From: an uncultured Muribaculaceae bacterium
Lineage (GTDB): Bacteria > Bacteroidota > Bacteroidia > Bacteroidales > Muribaculaceae
Length of the DNA stretch: 11,677 nt
Direction: 5' to 3'
Assembly (NCBI GenBank): GCA_947177435.1
Contig: CAMWUM010000025.1
Location: forward strand, 1 to 11,677
This document shows positions 1 to 9,676 of this stretch, one piece after another (the first letter of the stretch is position 1; each line of letters opens with the position of its first letter). The translations under genes were made by a program, and so were the position numbers. The notes beneath the pieces are model-generated. The model ran no database searches and was not told the origin of the DNA. It saw only the letters and a list, made by a program, of their open reading frames with translations.

Positions 1-946
1 GGTCGGTATATACGCGGATACAGGAGCGCAACGAATCAAAGTGATCGCAGTGCATTACCATGTTGGCGAGGGCTTCACGGAGCACCTTGTATTGGCTCTC
101 GTCTGTTGTCGCAAATCCATCGTCCTTGATATGTATTGGCGCATCAACAAGTGTTCGGAAACGACGCAGGATAATCTGAACCGCCTCCCAGATGTTATCC
201 TGTTCCGGAATGCGGTAGGTGTATCTTACCTCTGCCTGCTGGATTGTCGGACCCGGAATCTCTATGTAGTCCACACAGAATGTCGGTACATAGCGAAGGA
301 CGTAAGGGGCTTTGCCGAACATCAGAAGTCCGGCATAGGTGAGCAAGCCATTTCGGGTTATATTGACCTGCTCACAGAATTCCGCATCATCTACCTCGCG
401 GAGGTTGACAATATTCTGAGTCTGACTAAGAGCATACCTGTAACTTTTCAGCGTATTGAGATTCAGCATCTCAATACTTGTGTCGGGTATTGTCTCTTCG
501 GTTTTCTTGCCGAAGGATTGATTGCGGAACATCGCCCGTATCTCTCCCTCAGTTGCCCTTTGGTCTCCGCTACCCATTCGAATGAACGTGTTGATGGGGC
601 TGCCGAAATATATGGGCTTCAAATCAACTTCCGGCACATAGAACGCAAGAAGTTTCTTGCCGTCAATGTCGTATTGCTTAAAAGATACAGACAATCTTTG
701 ATTGAATTTCTCAGAGCGCAGAGTACCAAGAAAATCTTGTTCAAGTTTTTCGATGTTATCCACCCCTTGAATCTCGAATGTCTTGCCGGATTGTTTCACT
801 CCGAGCACAATCCATCCGCCGGAGGTATTTGAGAACGCGCTGACGCTTTCCCAGATATTCTTCGGCAATTCAGATTTTGCAGCCTTGACTTCAAAATCCT
901 CCCATTCTATGTCGTGTAGCTTCGCTACAAGCTCATCCTTTGTCAT
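1..946 (-). CDS. AlbA_2 (Schlafen-type) nucleic-acid-binding, GHKL ATPase-like protein, C-terminus cut by window edge
   Basis: Translating the minus strand from the ATG at 946 gives 315 open codons that run off the left edge, so the C-terminal part is missing. Residues about 14-139 match the AlbA_2 (Schlafen AlbA, PF04326) pattern: FEVKAAKSELPKNIWESVSA at 18-37, then FSNTSGGWIVLGVK, and later the classic TFIRMGSGDQRATEGEIRAM at 120-139. Near the cut end, REALANMVMHCDH (290-302) matches the N-box of the GHKL/HATPase_c_4 module, with E291 and N295 as the expected Mg/ATP residues. Proteins of this layout are annotated as putative transcriptional regulators, RecG-like ATP-binding proteins or RNA-binding-domain proteins; the true role is generally unknown, and some homologues lie in defence or mobile regions. 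I see no signal peptide, so it is presumably cytoplasmic. The start is well supported: the family's N-terminal motif begins within 20 residues and the next Met is residue 139. The 792-base plus-strand reading frame over the same DNA is a shadow. Confidence 0.9.
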   Translation of the reverse strand, partial: MTKDELVAKLHDIEWEDFEVKAAKSELPKNIWESVSAFSNTSGGWIVLGVKQSGKTFEIQGVDNIEKLEQDFLGTLRSEKFNQRLSVSFKQYDIDGKKLLAFYVPEVDLKPIYFGSPINTFIRMGSGDQRATEGEIRAMFRNQSFGKKTEETIPDTSIEMLNLNTLKSYRYALSQTQNIVNLREVDDAEFCEQVNITRNGLLTYAGLLMFGKAPYVLRYVPTFCVDYIEIPGPTIQQAEVRYTYRIPEQDNIWEAVQIILRRFRTLVDAPIHIKDDGFATTDESQYKVLREALANMVMHCDHFDSLRSCIRVYTD

Positions 947-1021: not shown

Positions 1022-1051
1022 CAGGCGGCGAGTAAGTTTACTCGCCGCCTG
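1022..1051 (-). terminator. Strong hairpin overlapping the stop codon of the leftward GH127 gene
   Basis: Bases 1022-1035 and 1038-1051 are perfect inverted repeats (14 base pairs, core GGCGGCGAGTAA) with only two bases between them; in RNA the inner A-U pairs would open to make a normal loop. The stop codon of the 662-residue glycosidase (1038-1040) lies in the 5' arm of the RNA hairpin, and the same arm encodes its last residues, AGGE. No U-tract follows on the minus strand, so it is not a textbook intrinsic terminator. Its position between this stop codon and the next promoter still makes transcript ending or 3'-end protection the likeliest role. Confidence 0.6.
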
Positions 1052-3026
1052 CAGAAACCGCTCTCGCAGCGGACACGTCGATGGGCAGCCAGACTGCCAT
1101 GTTGCCGCGTCCGCGGTGATTCCACGCGTAATACGGGATGAGCGTGAGAGTGACGTCGTCGGCTACAAGTTTGCCTTGATCGTTGTATCTAAGTGCTTGG
1201 GCTTCGGTCTCTATCGTGTTGATGCCATAGAGCAAATCGGGACGTTCAGTCACGCGCAATCTTGGCGACTGGTTCATGAGCACGCTATGGATGTCGAAAT
1301 CATTGTCGGGCCACTCGGCGCAGTACACTATCGGGCCACGCTCTATAGCCACGCGTCCACGGTCAGCCTCGACAAGATCGTTGGCCTTTACCACACGCGG
1401 CTCCATATCGAAGTGTATATCTACCTTGTCGCCTTTTTTCCATTTGCGGTCGATGCAATAGTAACCTTGCTCAATGTGGCCATCGGCAGGAGAGCCGTTG
1501 ACGGACACGCTGTAACCCAGTTGCTTGCCATCAGCATACGCATACAGGTCGCCGGGGACGGGGCTGTTGTTGACCCAACCGGGAATACGGATCTTGAGGG
1601 TAAACTGTCCGGCCTTGTTTTTGTCAATGTTGAGCGCGATGTCGCCGTTCCAGGGATAGTTTGCGCTCTGGCTGAGGGCCAATTCTTTGTCATCAACATC
1701 GAGCTTTGCCGAGTTTGACATAAAGAGGTTGACGTACACGCTTCGGTCTTTCACAGCATACACGTAGCCGGGCAGTGAAGGGATGAAGCGGGAGATGTTG
1801 GACGGACAGCAGGCGCAGCCAAACCAGGGCTTGCGCTGATGCTGACCCTCCGACGCGAGAGGATTGGGATAGAAGAACGCTCCACCGTCGAGCGAAACTC
1901 CCGAAATGAGGCCGTTGTAAAGCGTGCGCTCAAGCACGTCGTAATATTTCGAATCTCCATGCAGCAGGAACAGACGGTGGTTGACGTATAGGTTGCCAAT
2001 GGCGGCGCAAGTCTCGCAGTACGCGGTCAGGTTTGGCAACTCGTAGTTTTCACCAAACGCCTCGCCATTGCTCGTGGCGCCGATGCCACCCGTTATGTAC
2101 AATTTCTTGTTGACGATATTATCCCATATTTTGTCGATGGCGGCAATATATGCAGAGTCACCGGTGAGAGCAGCCACATCCGCCATGCCGGCATACATAT
2201 AGGCAGCGCGCACAGCGTGGCCTACAGCCTCGTCCTGGTCAACGACAGGCTTATGCGCCTGGCTATAAGCGTCGGTGCGTGAAGTATGGCCGCGCTTGTC
2301 GAGGAAATACTTGGCCTGGTCGAGATATTTCTTGTCACCGGTGACGAGGTACAACTTAGCCAAAGCCATCTCAGCAATCTGGTGGCCGGGCACACGAGCC
2401 ACTTGGCCGGGAGCATCGCCAATGGCATCACAAACGCAGTCGGCATACCGAATGGCAATATCAAGGAAATTGCGCTTGCCCGTGGCCTGATAGTGGGCAA
2501 TCGCACCCTCCACCATGTGGCCCAAGTTATAAAACTCATGGCTCAACACTTCCACGGCCTCCCAGCGCTCAGCCCCGGCCCACTCGTGCGGATGTCGGGG
2601 ATTCATCGTGCGCGCTGTGTAAAGGTAGCCGTCAGGTTCCTGCGCAGCGGCAACGATGACAAGGACACTGTCAATGTATCTGTCGAGAGCCGGATCGGGA
2701 TAGGTCTGCATCAAATAGCTCGCGCCTTCAATCGTCTTGTATACATCGGTATCGTCAAACGAAAAGCCCCCGACATGAATGGTATCGGACGGGTGCGCCG
2801 CATTTATGAAATTCTGGTAACGACCCGACTCCTCGCACTTACTGAAAGCAAGCGGAATAGTCACATTACGGCTCGCATCGAGGCGCTGCCCCCAAAAGCC
2901 GTCAGTAACATGCACCGATGTGAAGGGCACCGGATCAATGGGATAGCCGTGATGGCTTTGCGACATAACAGCCGCGGGAAGCAATAGGCTTCCGGACAGC
3001 AGCATTGAAGATATGATTTTACGCAT
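1038..3026 (-). CDS. Secreted GH127/GH146-type (DUF1680) glycoside hydrolase, probable beta-L-arabinofuranosidase
   Basis: This 662-residue protein starts with a Sec signal peptide (MRKIISSMLLSGSLLLPAAV, likely cleaved near MSQ at 21-23), so it should act in the periplasm or at the outer surface. Residues about 33-430 form the (alpha/alpha)6 catalytic domain of the Glyco_hydro_127 family; a middle beta domain (ERGPIVYC motif) and a C-terminal domain (YYAWNHRGRGNMAVWLP) follow. The active site is intact: E322 in GEAFG as acid/base, E338 and C340 in YCETC, and C406-C407 in CACCPSN. By comparison with the Bifidobacterium enzyme HypBA1, C406 would be the nucleophile and E338, C340 and C407 zinc ligands. 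The family removes terminal beta-L-arabinofuranose from plant glycans; a Bacteroides member acts instead on aceric acid of rhamnogalacturonan II, so the exact sugar is uncertain. It is divergent from a paralogue across 109 bases and ends within a hairpin. Length is normal for a family member without extra modules. Confidence 0.92.
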   Translation of the reverse strand: MRKIISSMLLSGSLLLPAAVMSQSHHGYPIDPVPFTSVHVTDGFWGQRLDASRNVTIPLAFSKCEESGRYQNFINAAHPSDTIHVGGFSFDDTDVYKTIEGASYLMQTYPDPALDRYIDSVLVIVAAAQEPDGYLYTARTMNPRHPHEWAGAERWEAVEVLSHEFYNLGHMVEGAIAHYQATGKRNFLDIAIRYADCVCDAIGDAPGQVARVPGHQIAEMALAKLYLVTGDKKYLDQAKYFLDKRGHTSRTDAYSQAHKPVVDQDEAVGHAVRAAYMYAGMADVAALTGDSAYIAAIDKIWDNIVNKKLYITGGIGATSNGEAFGENYELPNLTAYCETCAAIGNLYVNHRLFLLHGDSKYYDVLERTLYNGLISGVSLDGGAFFYPNPLASEGQHQRKPWFGCACCPSNISRFIPSLPGYVYAVKDRSVYVNLFMSNSAKLDVDDKELALSQSANYPWNGDIALNIDKNKAGQFTLKIRIPGWVNNSPVPGDLYAYADGKQLGYSVSVNGSPADGHIEQGYYCIDRKWKKGDKVDIHFDMEPRVVKANDLVEADRGRVAIERGPIVYCAEWPDNDFDIHSVLMNQSPRLRVTERPDLLYGINTIETEAQALRYNDQGKLVADDVTLTLIPYYAWNHRGRGNMAVWLPIDVSAARAVSAGGE

Positions 3027-3135: not shown

Positions 3136-5577
3136 ATGAAACCAACATTTCGCATTCTCGGCTTGATAGCTGTGGCCGGAATCCTTGCCGCCGGTCCCAA
3201 AGCATACGCCGTAGCCGATAACAAGATAAGGGAAGTACAGTTTACGTCTGTACACATCGACGACAATTTCTGGGCGCCTCGCATTGAGACCAACCGCACG
3301 GTATCTATCCCCTCTGCCTTTGGAGAATGCGAACGCAACGGGCGCTTCGATAATTTCGCATTGGCAGGTGGCCTGATCGAAGGAGAGCACCGAGGCGACT
3401 TCTCATTTGACGACACCGACCCGTACAAAGTCATCGAGGGCGCGAGCTATGCCTTGGCCGCTCACTACGATCCTCGGCTTGACGCTTACCTCGACAGCGT
3501 AATCGCTATCATTGCCTCGGCTCAGGAGCCTGACGGCTACCTCACAACCTGCGTCACCAATAAATGCGAACGCCTGTCGGGCTGGTGGGGCTCGCACAGG
3601 TGGGAGAAAGTCAACTCTCACGAACTCTACAACAGCGGCCACCTATATGAGGCCGCAGTCGCCCACTTCCTCGCCACCGGCAAGCGCTCCCTGCTCGACG
3701 TGGCCATTAGAAACGCCGACCTGGTGTGTGAGGTGTTCGGCCTCGGCGAGGGCCAGATACATTACCCGTCAGGCCATCCAATCATCGAGATGGCTCTGGC
3801 CAAGCTTTACAAGATGACGGGAAACGAAAAGTACCTGCTCCAGGCCCGCTATTTCGTCGATGAAGCCGGACGGCTTAGCAATGGCCGCCGTCCCAACCAG
3901 TACAGCCAAGACCACATGCCGATAAAAGAGCAAGAGGAAATCGTCGGTCACGCCGTGCGCGCCGGCTACCTATACTCCGGCGCGGCCGATGTGGCTGCGC
4001 TCACGGACGACACCGAACTTTTCGAGGCTCTGCAACGCATCTGGGATAACATGGCATCGAAGAAGCTTTATATCACCGGAGGCATCGGCAGCCGCGCCCA
4101 AGGCGAAGGATTCGGCCCGGAGTACGAACTGCACAACCACACTGCCTATTGCGAGACCTGCGCGGCCATCGCCAACGTGTATTGGAATTACCGCATGTTC
4201 CTGGCCACCGGCGATGCTAAGTACGCCGACGTCTACGAGCGTGCGCTGTACAATGGCGTCATCTCCGGAGTCTCGCTTTCGGGCGACCGCTTCTTCTACG
4301 ACAACCCGCTCGAATCAATGGGCCAGCACGAGCGCGCTCCCTGGTTTGGCTGCGCCTGCTGCCCGGGCAATATCACCCGCTTCATGGCCAGCGTGCCCCA
4401 ATACGTGTACGCCACGCAGGACGCCGACATTTTTGTCAACCTGTATGCCAACAGCGTTGCCGACATCAAGACCACGAACGGCAAGGTGAAAATATCCCAA
4501 GGCACCAACTACCCATGGGACGGCAAAATTACATTCACCATCGACCCAGACCATGAGGGCGAGTGGGCATTGAGACTGCGCATACCGGGCTGGGCCAGTG
4601 ACAAACCGGTACCTACCGACCTGTATGCATTTGCGGATCAACTCTCACCGGCCTACAGACTTAAAGTCAACGGCGCCGACGCCAGCGAGTCGACATACAA
4701 GGGCTATGCCGTGATTGAGCGCCGGTGGAAGGCAGGCGACCGCGTAGAGTTAACCCTGCCGATGGACGTGCGCCGCATATCCGCCCACCCCAGCGTAGTC
4801 GATGACAGAGGCAAACTTGCAATAGAGCGCGGCCCGATCGTGTACTGCCTCGAAGGGGTTGACCAGGCCGACGGCTCGGTATTCAACAAGGCCATAGAGC
4901 GTGATGCCAAGTTCAACGTCCTGTACGAGCCCGACCTGCTCGGCGGCGTGATAACGCTGACGGCCACAGCCACCGAAGCGCAGCCTGACGGAACCACCCT
5001 CCGCGTCCCCGTCAAGGCCATCCCCTACTCCACCTGGAACAACCGCGGCCCCGCGCAGATGGCCGTATGGATACCAGAAACAACAGATGGCGCCCACGCC
5101 ACTCCGGCTTCCACCCTGGCCTCGACGGCTACTATGTACTCCGAGCCCACGTCGATCAACGCCGACGCTCCCGCAGCCACATCCAACCTGCAATGGGCAT
5201 GGGGCTACAACGACCTCTGGGAACCGTCATCGAGTGCCGACACATCAAAGCCCTATCACTATTGGTGGCTCCGCCGAGGCACTGAGGAAAACATCTGCTA
5301 CGGATTTGAACAGCCGGTTACAGTGTCATCGACAGACATTTACTGGCTTGAATTCGACCATTACGACGGCAACTACCGCGTGCCAGAGTCGTGGGCTCTG
5401 TATTACAAAGACAGCAATGGCTTATGGGCCGAGGTGCAGGCCAAGGGCCCCTACGGCACAGAGAAAGACAAGTACAATCATGTCGATTTTGAGCCGGTGA
5501 CAACAGATGCCCTAAAAATTGTGGTCAAGCTGCAGCCCAACGAAAGCGGCGGCGTCATCGAGTGGAAACTCCAATGA
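3136..5577 (+). CDS. Secreted GH127/GH146-type (DUF1680) glycoside hydrolase with C-terminal F5/8-like module
   Basis: This 813-residue protein has a Sec signal peptide (MKPTFRILGLIAVAGILAAG, cleaved near AYA at about residue 25). Its first 645 residues are colinear with the divergent 662-residue enzyme and clearly similar throughout. The DUF1680 active site is intact: E324 (GEGFG, acid/base), E340 and C342 (YCETC), C408-C409 (CACCPGN, with C408 the likely nucleophile); ERGPIVYC marks the middle domain. After a Thr/Ala/Ser-rich linker (about 646-665) comes a module at 666-813 (WEPSSSADTS, HYWWLRRGTEE, RVPESW, ending IEWKLQ). It resembles galactose-binding/F5/8-type beta-sandwich modules found C-terminal in many Bacteroidetes DUF1680 enzymes and may bind carbohydrate. 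Expected activity is exo-hydrolysis of beta-L-arabinofuranosides or a related sugar in the periplasm. Next to the acid/base region it has ELHNH where the paralogue has ELPNL, suggesting a different specificity. Its stop codon lies inside a hairpin, 26 bases from the convergent nrdJ stop. Confidence 0.92.
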   Translation: MKPTFRILGLIAVAGILAAGPKAYAVADNKIREVQFTSVHIDDNFWAPRIETNRTVSIPSAFGECERNGRFDNFALAGGLIEGEHRGDFSFDDTDPYKVIEGASYALAAHYDPRLDAYLDSVIAIIASAQEPDGYLTTCVTNKCERLSGWWGSHRWEKVNSHELYNSGHLYEAAVAHFLATGKRSLLDVAIRNADLVCEVFGLGEGQIHYPSGHPIIEMALAKLYKMTGNEKYLLQARYFVDEAGRLSNGRRPNQYSQDHMPIKEQEEIVGHAVRAGYLYSGAADVAALTDDTELFEALQRIWDNMASKKLYITGGIGSRAQGEGFGPEYELHNHTAYCETCAAIANVYWNYRMFLATGDAKYADVYERALYNGVISGVSLSGDRFFYDNPLESMGQHERAPWFGCACCPGNITRFMASVPQYVYATQDADIFVNLYANSVADIKTTNGKVKISQGTNYPWDGKITFTIDPDHEGEWALRLRIPGWASDKPVPTDLYAFADQLSPAYRLKVNGADASESTYKGYAVIERRWKAGDRVELTLPMDVRRISAHPSVVDDRGKLAIERGPIVYCLEGVDQADGSVFNKAIERDAKFNVLYEPDLLGGVITLTATATEAQPDGTTLRVPVKAIPYSTWNNRGPAQMAVWIPETTDGAHATPASTLASTATMYSEPTSINADAPAATSNLQWAWGYNDLWEPSSSADTSKPYHYWWLRRGTEENICYGFEQPVTVSSTDIYWLEFDHYDGNYRVPESWALYYKDSNGLWAEVQAKGPYGTEKDKYNHVDFEPVTTDALKIVVKLQPNESGGVIEWKLQ

Positions 5578-5603: not shown

Positions 5604-8126
5604 TTAGCCGCAGCGGGATGAGCCGCAAGAGGTGCAGATGAGACAGCCCTCTTGGTAAATGAGGGTGGCGTTTCCGCAGTTGGGGCATACCTTGCCGCTG
5701 GCTTTGGTGCCGTTGGGAATGTATTTTTTGAGCGCGCGCTCCACGCCCATCTTCCACGAGTTGATCGATTGGCTATCGAGCTCGAGGCCGTCAACCATCT
5801 TGATTACCTGGTCAATGGGCATGCCATAACGGAGCACGCCTGAGATAAGCTTGGCATAGTTCCAGAACTCGGGATTGAACTTGTACGACAGGCCTTCGAT
5901 CGTGGTCTTATAGCCGCGCTTGTTGATGAACTGGAAGTCGTAACGCTTGTTGCCTTCGGGGTCTATCGCCTTGATAATCTTGCCGCTGGTGACAGATTTG
6001 GGACAGAAGATGCCATCCTCGTCGTCGGCCAGACCGGTGAAGATTTCGTAAGGAGCGCCGTCGATGAGACCGACGAACGCAATCCACTTTTCCTTATTGT
6101 TCTGGAAGCGCACCACGTCGGCATCAAGTTCGTTGGGACGCTTCGTGACATGCGCCTTGTCAGCGGCAGGCTCGGACTTTTTCTTGTTATCCATCGACAT
6201 GAGCACATTGTTACGCGAGCCATCGCGATATACGGTGCAACCCTTGCAACCGGATTTCCAAGCCTCCATATAAAGCTGTGCGACAGTCTCTTCCGATACA
6301 TCCTCGGGCAGGTTGATGGTAACCGAGATGCTGTGGTCAACCCACTTTTGCACGGCACCCTGCATATGCACCTTTTCGAGCCAGTCGATTTCGTTGGCAG
6401 TGGCGCCGGCATAAGGCGACTCAGCCACGAGGGCGTCGATCTCCTCCTGAGTGTAGTTTTCCTTGCGCTCGCGTCCGGTGGCCTCCATCCAATCGATGAA
6501 CTTGGGATGGTACACTACGTATTCCTCAAAAGCATCGCCGGTCTCGTCGACGAAGTCAACGCGCACGTCGGCGTCATTGGGGTTAACCTTACGACGGCGC
6601 TTATAGACAGGACGGAACACAGGCTCGATGCCCGAGGTGGTGCGCGTCATAAGGCTGGTGGTGCCTGTGGGAGCGATGGTAAGGCAGGCGATATTGCGGC
6701 GGCCATGCTTCTCCATGTCGGCTACGAGTTCGGGATCGGCCTCGCGCAGACGGTTGATATAAGGATTGTTGCGCTCACGCTCGACATCATAGATCTCAAA
6801 CGCTCCGCGTTCCTTGGCCAGTTCGACCGATGCGCGGTAAATGGCAAGAGCCAAAGCGCGATGCACCTTGACGGAGAACTCGGTAGCCTCCTTGGTGCCG
6901 TATTTCAGGCCAAGTGCGGCGAGCATGTCGCCCTCGGCAGTTGTGCCCACGCCGGTGCGGCGGCCTTTGAGGGTCTTGCTGCGAAGCTTCTCCCAGAGAT
7001 GCTTTTCGCTGCTCTTAACCTCGACGGGCTCGGGGTCGGAATCAATCTTGGCGAGAATGGTCTCAATCTTCTCCATCTCGAGATCGATGATGTCATCCAT
7101 CATGCGCTGGGCGTACTGCGCGTGGTCGCGAAGCTTGTCGAAATTGAACGATGCCTCGGGCGTAAAAGGCTTGTCAACATACGAGTAGAGGTTGATGGCA
7201 AGCAGACGGCAACTTTCGTAAGGACACAATGGAATTTCACCGCAGCGATTGGTTGAGATGGTCTCGAATCCAAGGTCGGCGTAGCAATCGGGCACTGACT
7301 CGCGGGTGATGGTATCCCAGAAGAGCACGCCAGGCTCAGCCGACTGCCATGCGTTATGGATAATCTTATCCCACAGGGTCTTGGCATCGATTTCCTTCTT
7401 GACCATAGGGTCGGGCGCACCGATGGGATATTGCTGCACGAAAGGTTTGCCCTCACCGGCGGCATGCATGAAATCGTCAGAAATACGCACAGACACGTTG
7501 GCGCCGGTCACCTTGCCCTCGACCATCTTTGCGTCGATAAACGCCTCTGAATCCGGATGATTAATCGACACCGTGAGCATCAGCGCGCCTCGGCGGCCAT
7601 CCTGAGCTACCTCGCGGGTGGAGTTGGAATAGCGCTCCATAAACGGCACCAGGCCGGTCGAAGTGAGAGCCGAGTTGTTGACGGGCGTACCCTTTGGACG
7701 GATGTGGCTGAGGTCGTGGCCCACGCCACCGCGACGCTTCATAAGCTGCACCTGCTCCTCGTCGATGCGGATGATGCCGCCGTAAGAGTCAGGATGACCG
7801 TCAATGCCGATCACGAAGCAGTTTGAGAGCGAACCCACCTGGTAGTTGTTGCCGATGCCGCTCATGGGGCTGCCCTGGGGCACGATGTAGCGGAAATCCT
7901 TGAGCATCTCAAAGGCTTTTTCCTTCGACATCGGGTTGGGATATTTCTCCTCGATGCGGGCAATCTCACCGGCGATGCGGTGGTGCATATCGTCGGGAGT
8001 GAGTTCGTAAATATTGCCGTTGGAGTCTTTCAGCGCATACTTGCTGACCCAGACTCTTGCAGCCAACTGGTCGCCGCCGAAGTATTTCAATGAGGCTTCG
8101 TAGGCCTCGTCGTAGGTATAAGGCAT
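5604..8126 (-). CDS. nrdJ: Adenosylcobalamin-dependent (class II) ribonucleotide reductase
   Basis: This 840-residue cytoplasmic enzyme reduces ribonucleotides (typically diphosphates) to deoxyribonucleotides with a radical from coenzyme B12, so it works without oxygen. Landmarks: SLSNCFV with C103 as the first reducible cysteine; NRCGEIPL with N293, radical-bearing C295 and E297; C306 eleven residues later as the partner of C103; APTGTTSLM at 485-493 as the substrate-phosphate loop; and GCTVYRDGSR around 629-638. The C-terminus has a zinc-ribbon-like set of cysteines (C814, C817, C831, C834) and ends SSRCG, with C839 a candidate for re-reducing the active site. The spacing C103-C295-C306 is close to that of the Thermotoga maritima enzyme. 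No N-terminal ATP-cone is seen: the protein starts directly with the family sequence TYDEAYEASLKYFGGDQLAA. It is the last gene of a three-gene run, 23 bases after the DUF4301 stop, leaving no room for its own cobalamin riboswitch. No frameshift or missing catalytic residue is seen. Confidence 0.96.
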   Translation of the reverse strand: MPYTYDEAYEASLKYFGGDQLAARVWVSKYALKDSNGNIYELTPDDMHHRIAGEIARIEEKYPNPMSKEKAFEMLKDFRYIVPQGSPMSGIGNNYQVGSLSNCFVIGIDGHPDSYGGIIRIDEEQVQLMKRRGGVGHDLSHIRPKGTPVNNSALTSTGLVPFMERYSNSTREVAQDGRRGALMLTVSINHPDSEAFIDAKMVEGKVTGANVSVRISDDFMHAAGEGKPFVQQYPIGAPDPMVKKEIDAKTLWDKIIHNAWQSAEPGVLFWDTITRESVPDCYADLGFETISTNRCGEIPLCPYESCRLLAINLYSYVDKPFTPEASFNFDKLRDHAQYAQRMMDDIIDLEMEKIETILAKIDSDPEPVEVKSSEKHLWEKLRSKTLKGRRTGVGTTAEGDMLAALGLKYGTKEATEFSVKVHRALALAIYRASVELAKERGAFEIYDVERERNNPYINRLREADPELVADMEKHGRRNIACLTIAPTGTTSLMTRTTSGIEPVFRPVYKRRRKVNPNDADVRVDFVDETGDAFEEYVVYHPKFIDWMEATGRERKENYTQEEIDALVAESPYAGATANEIDWLEKVHMQGAVQKWVDHSISVTINLPEDVSEETVAQLYMEAWKSGCKGCTVYRDGSRNNVLMSMDNKKKSEPAADKAHVTKRPNELDADVVRFQNNKEKWIAFVGLIDGAPYEIFTGLADDEDGIFCPKSVTSGKIIKAIDPEGNKRYDFQFINKRGYKTTIEGLSYKFNPEFWNYAKLISGVLRYGMPIDQVIKMVDGLELDSQSINSWKMGVERALKKYIPNGTKASGKVCPNCGNATLIYQEGCLICTSCGSSRCG

Positions 8127-8149: not shown

Positions 8150-9676
8150 TTATGCCTGATGGGCGGGGCGCAGCAGGTCATTTACGGTCTTTACGGGATT
8201 GAAGCTTGTGCCGGGCACCTCAACGAAGATGGTGAGCCAGCGGCTCATGGCGCCATTCCAGAGGCCTGGAAGTTCGAGGGCGCGGAGGTCGCGGCCATCG
8301 AGCGACTTGCTTGAGATGAAGCCGGTGTCGGGATCTACGTAGTCGGGGAGGTTGAACTTATGGCCGTCGACATCCTTGATGTAGCATACGAGGTCAACCG
8401 GATTGAAGTGAGTGGCCTGGGCCATAATGTTGGCGTAAGCGGGCACGGTGGTGTCAATCTGAGTCGATTCGAGGATTTGGGGAGAAGCGGTGCCATCGGG
8501 ATTGTAAGCGATGAACGGGCCTCCGCCGGGTTCGCCCTCGTTGCGCACCATGCCGCAGACGCGCAGCGGGCGGTTAAGTTGGCTGATGAGGAAAGCCTGC
8601 AGCTCAGCGCCTTTGAGCGTAGCAAAACTATCTGAGATGATAGAGAACTCACTACGCAGGAAGTCGCACATCGGGCGCATCTGCTCGTCGGTGCAGTCAC
8701 CGGCCCAGAGTTGGTGCAGATATTCGGCCACCTTGTCGTGTGCGAGTATAAGCGTGCCGGCCAGCACCTGCTTGGAGCGGATAGTGGCATCGCGCTGTGA
8801 GTCGGGCACAACGTTGTCGATGTTCTTGATGAACACCACGGTTGAGTCGATATCGTTGAGGTTCTCGATCAGCGCGCCATGGCCGCCGGGGCGGAACACG
8901 ATGTTGCCTTCTTTGTTGCGGAAAGGCTCGCCGTCCATCGTAGCGGCCACTGTATCGGTGCTGGGCTTTTGCTGTGAGGTGGTGACGTCGAACTTCAGGC
9001 CGGTTTCCTTCTCCATCTGTGGAACAGCCTTGGCAATCTTCTCGTCAAAGAGGTGCTGATGGTTGGCCGAGACGGTGAAGTGCAACTTGACCTTACCGTG
9101 GGCAGCGGCGGTCTGGGCGCCCTCCATCAACTGCTCGTCCAGAGGAGTGCGCACATTGCCGTCGGCATAGCGGTGGAATGACAGCACGGCCTTGGGCAAC
9201 TGTCCGTAGTTGAGGCCGTCGGGCATAATGATACCGGCGATTACGTCCTTGCATCGGCCTTCGGCGATGAGTTCCTTGGCGGTCTTGCCGTACTTCTTGG
9301 CCAACACATCGTTGAGCTCGGCATAGAAAGGCGTCTTGTCGATATTGGCGATAAGTTTCTCAACGTCGCTGCCGGGCTTGGGAGCGTTCTCGTCGCCGTT
9401 GACGAACGAGAAGAGAGCCTTGAACATGCGCGAAGCGGCACCCGATGCGGGCACGAACTTGCACACGTCGCCACCGTCAGCCAGGTACTTTTTCCAACGG
9501 GCCACGGCCTCATCCTCCTGTCCGGAGTTGAGTTTGAGGATGCCGGCTCCGACCTTGGCCGAGGCGTAGAGTTTAAGGTAGGGGAAACCGCTCTTGAAGC
9601 GGGCCAGCTGCTCGTTGAGCTTTTCGGGCGTAATGCCTTTTTTCGCCATATAGGCAAGGTCTTGTTGTGAAAGCAT
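8150..9676 (-). CDS. DUF4301 family protein, predicted UDP-sugar-pyrophosphorylase-like nucleotidyltransferase
   Basis: The 508 residues match what I know of DUF4301 (PF14134), a family of unknown function concentrated in Bacteroidetes and about 500 residues long. There is no signal peptide or membrane segment, so it is probably cytoplasmic. Read in order, it resembles eukaryotic-type UDP-sugar pyrophosphorylases: a Gly-rich loop PASGAASRMFK (76-86); FTVSANHQHLFDEKI (200-214), where those enzymes have the SxxTH segment; PGGHGALIENL (263-273), like the PpGhGD loop; FIKNIDNVVPD (282-292), like the NxDN metal/uracil motif; CGMVRNEG (374-381) and ESTQID (403-408), like the VEYSEI region; and HFNPVDLV (423-430), like FNtNNLW. 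I infer activation of a sugar phosphate or similar compound with an NTP. The substrate is unknown and the family assignment is firmer than the function. The start at 9676, 5 bases after the TPR gene stop, is preferred over Met10 because the family begins with this QDLxxMAxKGI segment. Confidence 0.85.
   Translation of the reverse strand: MLSQQDLAYMAKKGITPEKLNEQLARFKSGFPYLKLYASAKVGAGILKLNSGQEDEAVARWKKYLADGGDVCKFVPASGAASRMFKALFSFVNGDENAPKPGSDVEKLIANIDKTPFYAELNDVLAKKYGKTAKELIAEGRCKDVIAGIIMPDGLNYGQLPKAVLSFHRYADGNVRTPLDEQLMEGAQTAAAHGKVKLHFTVSANHQHLFDEKIAKAVPQMEKETGLKFDVTTSQQKPSTDTVAATMDGEPFRNKEGNIVFRPGGHGALIENLNDIDSTVVFIKNIDNVVPDSQRDATIRSKQVLAGTLILAHDKVAEYLHQLWAGDCTDEQMRPMCDFLRSEFSIISDSFATLKGAELQAFLISQLNRPLRVCGMVRNEGEPGGGPFIAYNPDGTASPQILESTQIDTTVPAYANIMAQATHFNPVDLVCYIKDVDGHKFNLPDYVDPDTGFISSKSLDGRDLRALELPGLWNGAMSRWLTIFVEVPGTSFNPVKTVNDLLRPAHQA

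Follow-up and report, generated by a model that had tools for sequence, protein, structure and literature searches.

We analysed an 11,677-nucleotide stretch of DNA (hereafter the window) from an uncultured Muribaculaceae bacterium, in which the open reading frame (ORF) at positions 8150-9676 of the minus strand encodes a 508-aa protein of the DUF4301 family. The match to PF14134 (DUF4301) spans the whole protein (694.3 bits, profile positions 2-507 of 507), and no NCBIfam model matched it at E up to 1. A gene for a tetratricopeptide repeat protein lies 5 bases upstream, and the gene for an adenosylcobalamin-dependent ribonucleotide reductase lies 23 bases downstream. A first-pass annotation of this DNA had proposed that the protein resembles UDPGP/UAP1 nucleotidyltransferases in five motifs that occur in the order seen in that family. 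Indeed, all of them are present in that order: PASGAASRMFK (residues 76-86, positions 9451-9419), PGGHGALIENL (263-273, 8890-8858), FIKNIDNVVPD (282-292, 8833-8801), then the CGMVRNEG and ESTQID region, and HFNPVDLV (423-430). The motif that we judge to be the most diagnostic, FNPVKTVNDLL with K496, was absent from that list. The features of the protein are collected in the table.

Features of the DUF4301 gene and its product in the window; residue roles are those of PMC10470519 where it is cited.
Feature	Positions	Strand	Basis
DUF4301 (PF14134) gene, 508 aa, predicted UDPGP-like GT-A nucleotidyltransferase fold	8150..9676	-	Pfam, 694.3 bits; predicted structure
Putative nucleotide-binding loop P76-M84 (PASGAASRM), at the position of LxGGxGT(S/R) in UGP/UAP	9425..9451	-	mapped by motif; role from PMC10470519
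Helical insert 1, residues 87-157, between nucleotide loop and PK motif	9206..9418	-	inferred from model secondary structure versus UGP spacing
P161-K162, proposed equivalent of UGP Lys135 (beta/gamma phosphates)	9191..9196	-	order of secondary structure; role from PMC10470519
S234-x-Q236, proposed uridine-side Gln (UGP Gln198)	8969..8977	-	mapped by motif
RPGGHGAL (262-269), G265-H266 as putative UGP Gly227-His228, Asp of GHGD replaced by Ala	8870..8893	-	profile alignment with 3oc9; conservation
N285-I-D287-N288, putative sugar Asn and Mg Asp of NxDN	8813..8824	-	aligned with 3oc9; roles from PMC10470519
Helical insert 2, residues 296-367, between NxDN and sugar-binding loop	8576..8791	-	inferred from model helices 296-324, 330-343, 350-353 and 356-367
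NEGEPGGGP (379-387), proposed sugar-binding (SB) loop, Pro383 at the UGP Lys292 position	8516..8542	-	motif; GG aligned with KGG of a UDPGP protein (hhalign)
QILESTQ (400-406), E403 as putative UGP Glu307 (sugar)	8459..8479	-	aligned with LxExAQ stretch of UDPGP proteins
HFNPVDLV (423-430), N425 as putative UGP Asn329, Val427 at UGP Asn331	8387..8410	-	alignment with UDPGP proteins; conservation
ALELPGLWNGAMSRW (466-480), motif of the family in which W473 and W480 are invariant	8237..8281	-	conservation
FNPVKTVNDLL (492-502), K496 as putative catalytic Lys (UGP Lys403)	8171..8203	-	aligned with PVKT-DLL of 7ppr and of a UDPGP protein

Among GT-A enzymes, those of the UDPGP type gave the best matches to the predicted structure of the window protein, and a second model, of a distant fused relative, again placed UDPGP enzymes above other GT-A folds and matched NadR as well. 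Both predicted models point to a GT-A core with UDPGP topology, in line with the nucleotidyltransferase core supposed in the first-pass annotation. Since the window protein has no PF01704 sequence match, DUF4301 appears to be a separate family that shares this fold, so the kinship claimed with UDPGP/UAP1 holds for the predicted fold but not for membership of the sequence family. Two helical stretches (about residues 87-157 and 296-367) are placed where UGP has short loops; the first adds ~70 residues to what UGP has at the same place, judging from the secondary structure of the model and the spacing in UGP. The chain stops a few residues past K496, while UGP continues into a C-terminal beta-helix domain. 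DUF4301 is thus predicted to be a UDPGP-like GT-A nucleotidyltransferase, and most likely an active one.

Conservation was scored over 402 distinct sequences, made up of 359 listed proteins and the ORFs over 450 aa from loci L031-L075; the set takes in P0001 (the window's own cluster) and the members of alignment A2, which holds the window protein and 18 DUF4301 ORFs from the same loci. The 359 listed proteins were gathered via shared short words, and the collection favours conserved words. Residue roles were those given for fungal UGP in PMC10470519, and were transferred by motif. On the nucleotide side, UGP Gly123, Gly124, Lys135 and Gln198 would correspond to Ser78, Gly79, Lys162 and Gln236; in the centre, Gly227-His228, Asn256 and Asp258 to Gly265-His266, Asn285 and Asp287; and on the sugar side together with the catalytic Lys, Lys292, Glu307, Asn329, Asn331 and Lys403 to Pro383, Glu403, Asn425, Val427 and Lys496.

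Nearly all of these positions are invariant. K162, Q236, G265, H266, N285, D287 and K496 are each found in 402 of the 402 sequences, as are P161, S78, G79, R83, G267, N288, G384 and G385, while E403 and N425 are each found in 401. The NxDN motif (sugar, Mg) is therefore intact and aligns with 3oc9, and the Lys of FxPVKTxxxLL aligns with 7ppr and with a UDPGP protein. The PPGHGD motif retains PxGHG, with its final Asp replaced by Ala in 399/402. The LxGGxGT(R/S) loop of UDPGP enzymes reads PASGAASR in DUF4301; the alteration of this Gly-rich loop had been recognised in the first pass, and we find that the first base-contact Gly is replaced by Ser78. Because S78, P383 (400/402) and V427 (401/402) are as fixed as the putative catalytic positions, the changed pocket is a trait of the family. 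The family motif ALELPGLWNGAMSRW is likewise rigid, with W473, N474, G475, M477 and W480 each in 402/402.

The invariance of R83, G265, H266, G267, N285, D287 and N288 sets the motif resemblance above chance. Some details of the first-pass annotation required correction. Its R83 and K86 were numbered correctly, but its N286, D288 and N289 were each one too high and should read N285, D287 and N288. K86, which it placed in the active site, is probably not the relevant lysine, as it occurs in only 391/402 sequences and the UGP lysines are better matched by P161-K162 and K496. The description of PxGHG as a base contact was sound but incomplete, since this segment would also supply a phosphate-binding His (PMC10470519).

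The sequence support for kinship with UDPGP enzymes is real but weak, and it depends on the profile. When the profile of the 19 members of A2 was compared with the PDB, the UDP-GlcNAc pyrophosphorylase 3oc9 ranked first (E 0.0061, from RPxGHG to NxDN) and the UGP 7ppr ranked third (E 0.53, the part from LxExAQ to PVKT-DLL), with the unrelated protein 5z1g (E 0.16) ranked between the two. PF01704, membership of which is set by a curated cut-off of 22 bits, was matched by nine of the 19 members at E up to 10 (best 1.7e-4), and a PF01704 search of 296 Bacteroidota genomes, the same set that is used for all of the per-genome counts below, picked up one DUF4301 gene (5.5e-4, 18.5 bits), under that cut-off. 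With hhalign, a UDPGP protein was matched over the C-terminal part (E 1.6e-4, probability 50), and two UDPGP proteins gave E values of 7.5e-5 to 3.9e-4 (probability 34-44).

A number of results weigh against this kinship. The hhalign probabilities are no higher than 34-50 where a match is found, the N-terminal half is not aligned sensibly, and one global run (-glob) with A2 gave no match. Searched by itself, the window protein hit DUF4301 alone in Pfam (nothing for PF01704 at E up to 10) and retrieved no UDPGP chain from the PDB. An 85-member profile (A4, 84 of the 359 listed proteins and the window protein; A5 held 50 of the 359) likewise retrieved nothing from the PDB at E up to 10. In addition, K162 is matched to UGP Lys135 by the order of secondary structure, and a Gly that UGP needs for base contact, according to PMC10470519, is Ser throughout the 402 sequences. 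We therefore do not regard homology to UDPGP as proven from sequence alone. The window protein also gave no GalU/RmlA match (PF00483 in Pfam at E up to 10, TIGR01099 in NCBIfam at E up to 1).

The reading that we consider probable is that DUF4301 is catalytically active as a Mg-dependent nucleotidyltransferase (pyrophosphorylase) and has a UDPGP-type GT-A fold. Nucleotidyltransferase chemistry as such is quite likely. The P76-M84 loop would carry the nucleoside triphosphate (NTP), whose base would be close to Q236 and G265, K162 would bind the beta and gamma phosphates and D287 the Mg, and the acceptor phosphate, held by H266 and K496, would attack the alpha-phosphate to give a nucleoside diphosphate-linked product and pyrophosphate. 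As three of the four UGP sugar contacts (N285, E403 and N425) seem to be kept, the acceptor is somewhat more likely than not to be a sugar 1-phosphate; it need not be glucose 1-phosphate in the UGP pose, since DUF4301 lacks the SB-loop Lys and one of the sugar Asn residues. That the NTP is UTP is a guess. In the portions of the literature that were searched, DUF4301 was named in one paper only, as a row in a proteomics table, and PF14134 was not named; titles and abstract openings on Bacteroidetes NAD salvage and UDP-glucose enzymes do not mention DUF4301. The predicted chemistry, with its named residues, provides a short assay list for an open annotation.

DUF4301 is found in 51 of the 296 Bacteroidota genomes and, with one genome per genus, in 110 of 119 Bacteroidales genomes (109 above the cut-off, the remaining one a short fragment). 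An intact copy persists in G428, which has a 1.11-Mb chromosome (main contig 1,114,206 bases); together with the near universality of DUF4301 in Bacteroidales, this makes the protein a probable core enzyme of this major gut order. One listed protein (P0352) carries the source label Thermodesulfobacteriota. GalU is rare, with hits of E 1e-30 or better in 11/296 genomes, and UDPGP in full length is found in 1/296. Neither is present in the window genome (79% complete), G230 or G238, and among the Bacteroidales genomes searched GalU is absent in 3/3 and UDPGP in 23/23. Thus, DUF4301 may fill a gap in nucleotide-sugar synthesis or, in a bolder reading, in NAD salvage.

This rarity leaves room for a special case of the reading that we favour, in which DUF4301 is the main UDP-glucose pyrophosphorylase of Bacteroidales and replaces GalU and UDPGP. 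We consider this possible but doubtful, since many Bacteroidota without DUF4301 also lack GalU and UDPGP, GalU is present in two genomes that have DUF4301 (G190 and G249), and a 302-aa NTP_transferase, uncharacterised but related to 3pnn, competes with it for this role. The altered nucleotide and SB loops might instead indicate a GT-A protein that has lost catalysis and serves in binding or regulation, as might the RelA/SpoT-type gene that is the commonest neighbour in Bacteroidales, where it lies upstream and head-to-head (divergent) with DUF4301 in 32/75 loci; however, every residue mapped to a phosphate or Mg role is invariant in 402/402 sequences, which is unusual for a dead enzyme and makes this very improbable, and we read the RelA/SpoT adjacency as synteny. 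That the motifs are alike by chance on an unrelated fold would fit the lack of UDPGP matches in single-sequence searches and in one profile search, but is scarcely credible when two models match UDPGP enzymes over other GT-A folds.

A further alternative concerns the acceptor, and comes from family f6, probably Flavobacteriaceae to judge from fused proteins of like architecture that carry the name Flavobacterium. In f6, PnuC lies directly upstream of DUF4301 in 26 of the 26 genomes with DUF4301, a NadR-type kinase lies between them in 23, and kinase and DUF4301 share one open frame in 15. This arrangement could mean that the acceptor is nicotinamide mononucleotide (NMN) or another riboside 5'-phosphate, and that DUF4301 is a GT-A-fold NMN adenylyltransferase acting after the kinase, like the NMN adenylyltransferase (NMNAT) half of NadR. 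The kinase corresponds to the kinase half of NadR only (TIGR01526 165-323 of 325; 161-323 in the joined frames), and the model of the fused protein matches both UDPGP enzymes and NadR. We consider the fusion a stronger functional hint than gene order, as the order around the f6 gene is itself conserved, which weakens a functional reading of its neighbours. Nevertheless, we find NMN unlikely as the acceptor. Kinase without DUF4301 is common, and DUF4301 occurs without kinase in the window genome (no TIGR01526 match at E 1e-5), in G230 and G238, and in three f6 genomes (G084, G154 and G289) where PnuC adjoins DUF4301 and no kinase matches at E 1e-5; the two are thus not mutually dependent. PnuC lies beside DUF4301 in 0/24 other genomes with DUF4301 and has no match in the window genome. 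The f6 gene run also holds an arfB-like gene (by eye), and the three f6 genomes without DUF4301 that were inspected retain PnuC, kinase and then this gene, so that DUF4301 behaves there as a module that can be taken out. Genomes with full-length NadR are not depleted in DUF4301 (3/11 have it versus 51/296 overall), the window protein has no NCBIfam match to the NMNAT half of NadR (TIGR01526 positions 1-160), and the sugar contacts E403, N425 and N285 seem retained. NadD is present in 293/296 genomes and in 11/12 Bacteroidales tried (the miss is 74% complete), ruling out a missing NadD, so no gap in NAD synthesis demands DUF4301. The fullest version of the idea, in which DUF4301 is such an adenylyltransferase and the Flavobacterium fusion is an independently evolved NadR that turns nicotinamide riboside into NAD, is quite unlikely; no NAD-forming enzyme is known so far outside the HIGH-type NMNAT fold, so DUF4301 would be the first.

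Natural fusions of a NadR-type ribosylnicotinamide kinase to DUF4301 are seen in Flavobacterium in L043 (704-aa ORF) and P0242. In some sources such fusions carry the name nicotinamide-nucleotide adenylyl(transferase) or nicotinamide riboside kinase, which probably reflects only their kinase half. In L038, L040, L041, L046, L047, L061 and L070, a small-protein gene of one cluster lies just upstream of PnuC, and a scan of one member identified it as Thiamine_BP (PF01910, 30.7 bits). We dropped a thiamine link for this locus, as no thiamine pyrophosphate riboswitch was found at threshold in 14 sources (the window and 13 loci).

Gene adjacency was counted in 75 loci, after dropping the five of 80 named loci without a called DUF4301 ORF. 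Besides DUF4301 and RelA/SpoT (for example L086:3651-5855:-; one cluster member was scanned), no gene cluster recurs in more than five of the 80. The window's ribonucleotide reductase gene encodes NrdJ (5604-8126, same strand as DUF4301; TIGR02504, 560.6 bits, above cut-off), and a link to NrdJ or vitamin B12 was set aside on this count, the relatives' neighbours not having been scanned for NrdJ. Elsewhere in the window, a divergent pair of GH127-family genes (PF07944) lies at 1038-3026 on the minus strand (429.7 bits) and 3136-5577 on the plus strand (379.1 bits). Both proteins score ~490 bits with the NCBIfam aceric acid hydrolase model, far under its cut-off of 950, and thus their substrate may differ. 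A protein open at the window edge (1-946, minus strand) has a Schlafen/AlbA_2 domain (PF04326, 70.6 bits).

Other nucleotidyltransferase-like proteins were also encountered. The window genome encodes a 302-aa NTP_transferase akin to 3pnn, an uncharacterised PDB entry, and G428 has a protein similar to it by eye (L212:387-1292:- and L215:519-1502:-); no NCBIfam model matched either of the two at E 1e-10. In L177-L181, L184, L185, L187 and L188, frames of ~1110-1144 aa from some Bacteroidota have only partial PF01704 matches, mostly at about positions 160-295, and are apparently another UDPGP-like family.

Among known systems, the closest to DUF4301 include UDP-N-acetylhexosamine pyrophosphorylase (UAP1/AGX1), the UDPGP family (PF01704; UDP-glucose pyrophosphorylases Ugp1p, human UGP2, Leishmania UGP) and the Leishmania UDP-sugar pyrophosphorylase (USP), the last with a Z below most UGP and UAP matches. 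DUF4301 differs from the UDPGP family in four replacements (the first base Gly by Ser, the SB-loop Lys by Pro, one sugar Asn by Val and the GHGD Asp by Ala), and in its two ~70-aa helical inserts and lack of the beta-helix domain. NadR and FKP are kinase-nucleotidyltransferase fusions of a comparable type. The Flavobacterium relatives resemble NadR in joining a NadR-type kinase to a nucleotidyltransferase-like domain, but this second domain is UDPGP-like rather than the NMNAT domain of NadR, and the window protein is unfused.
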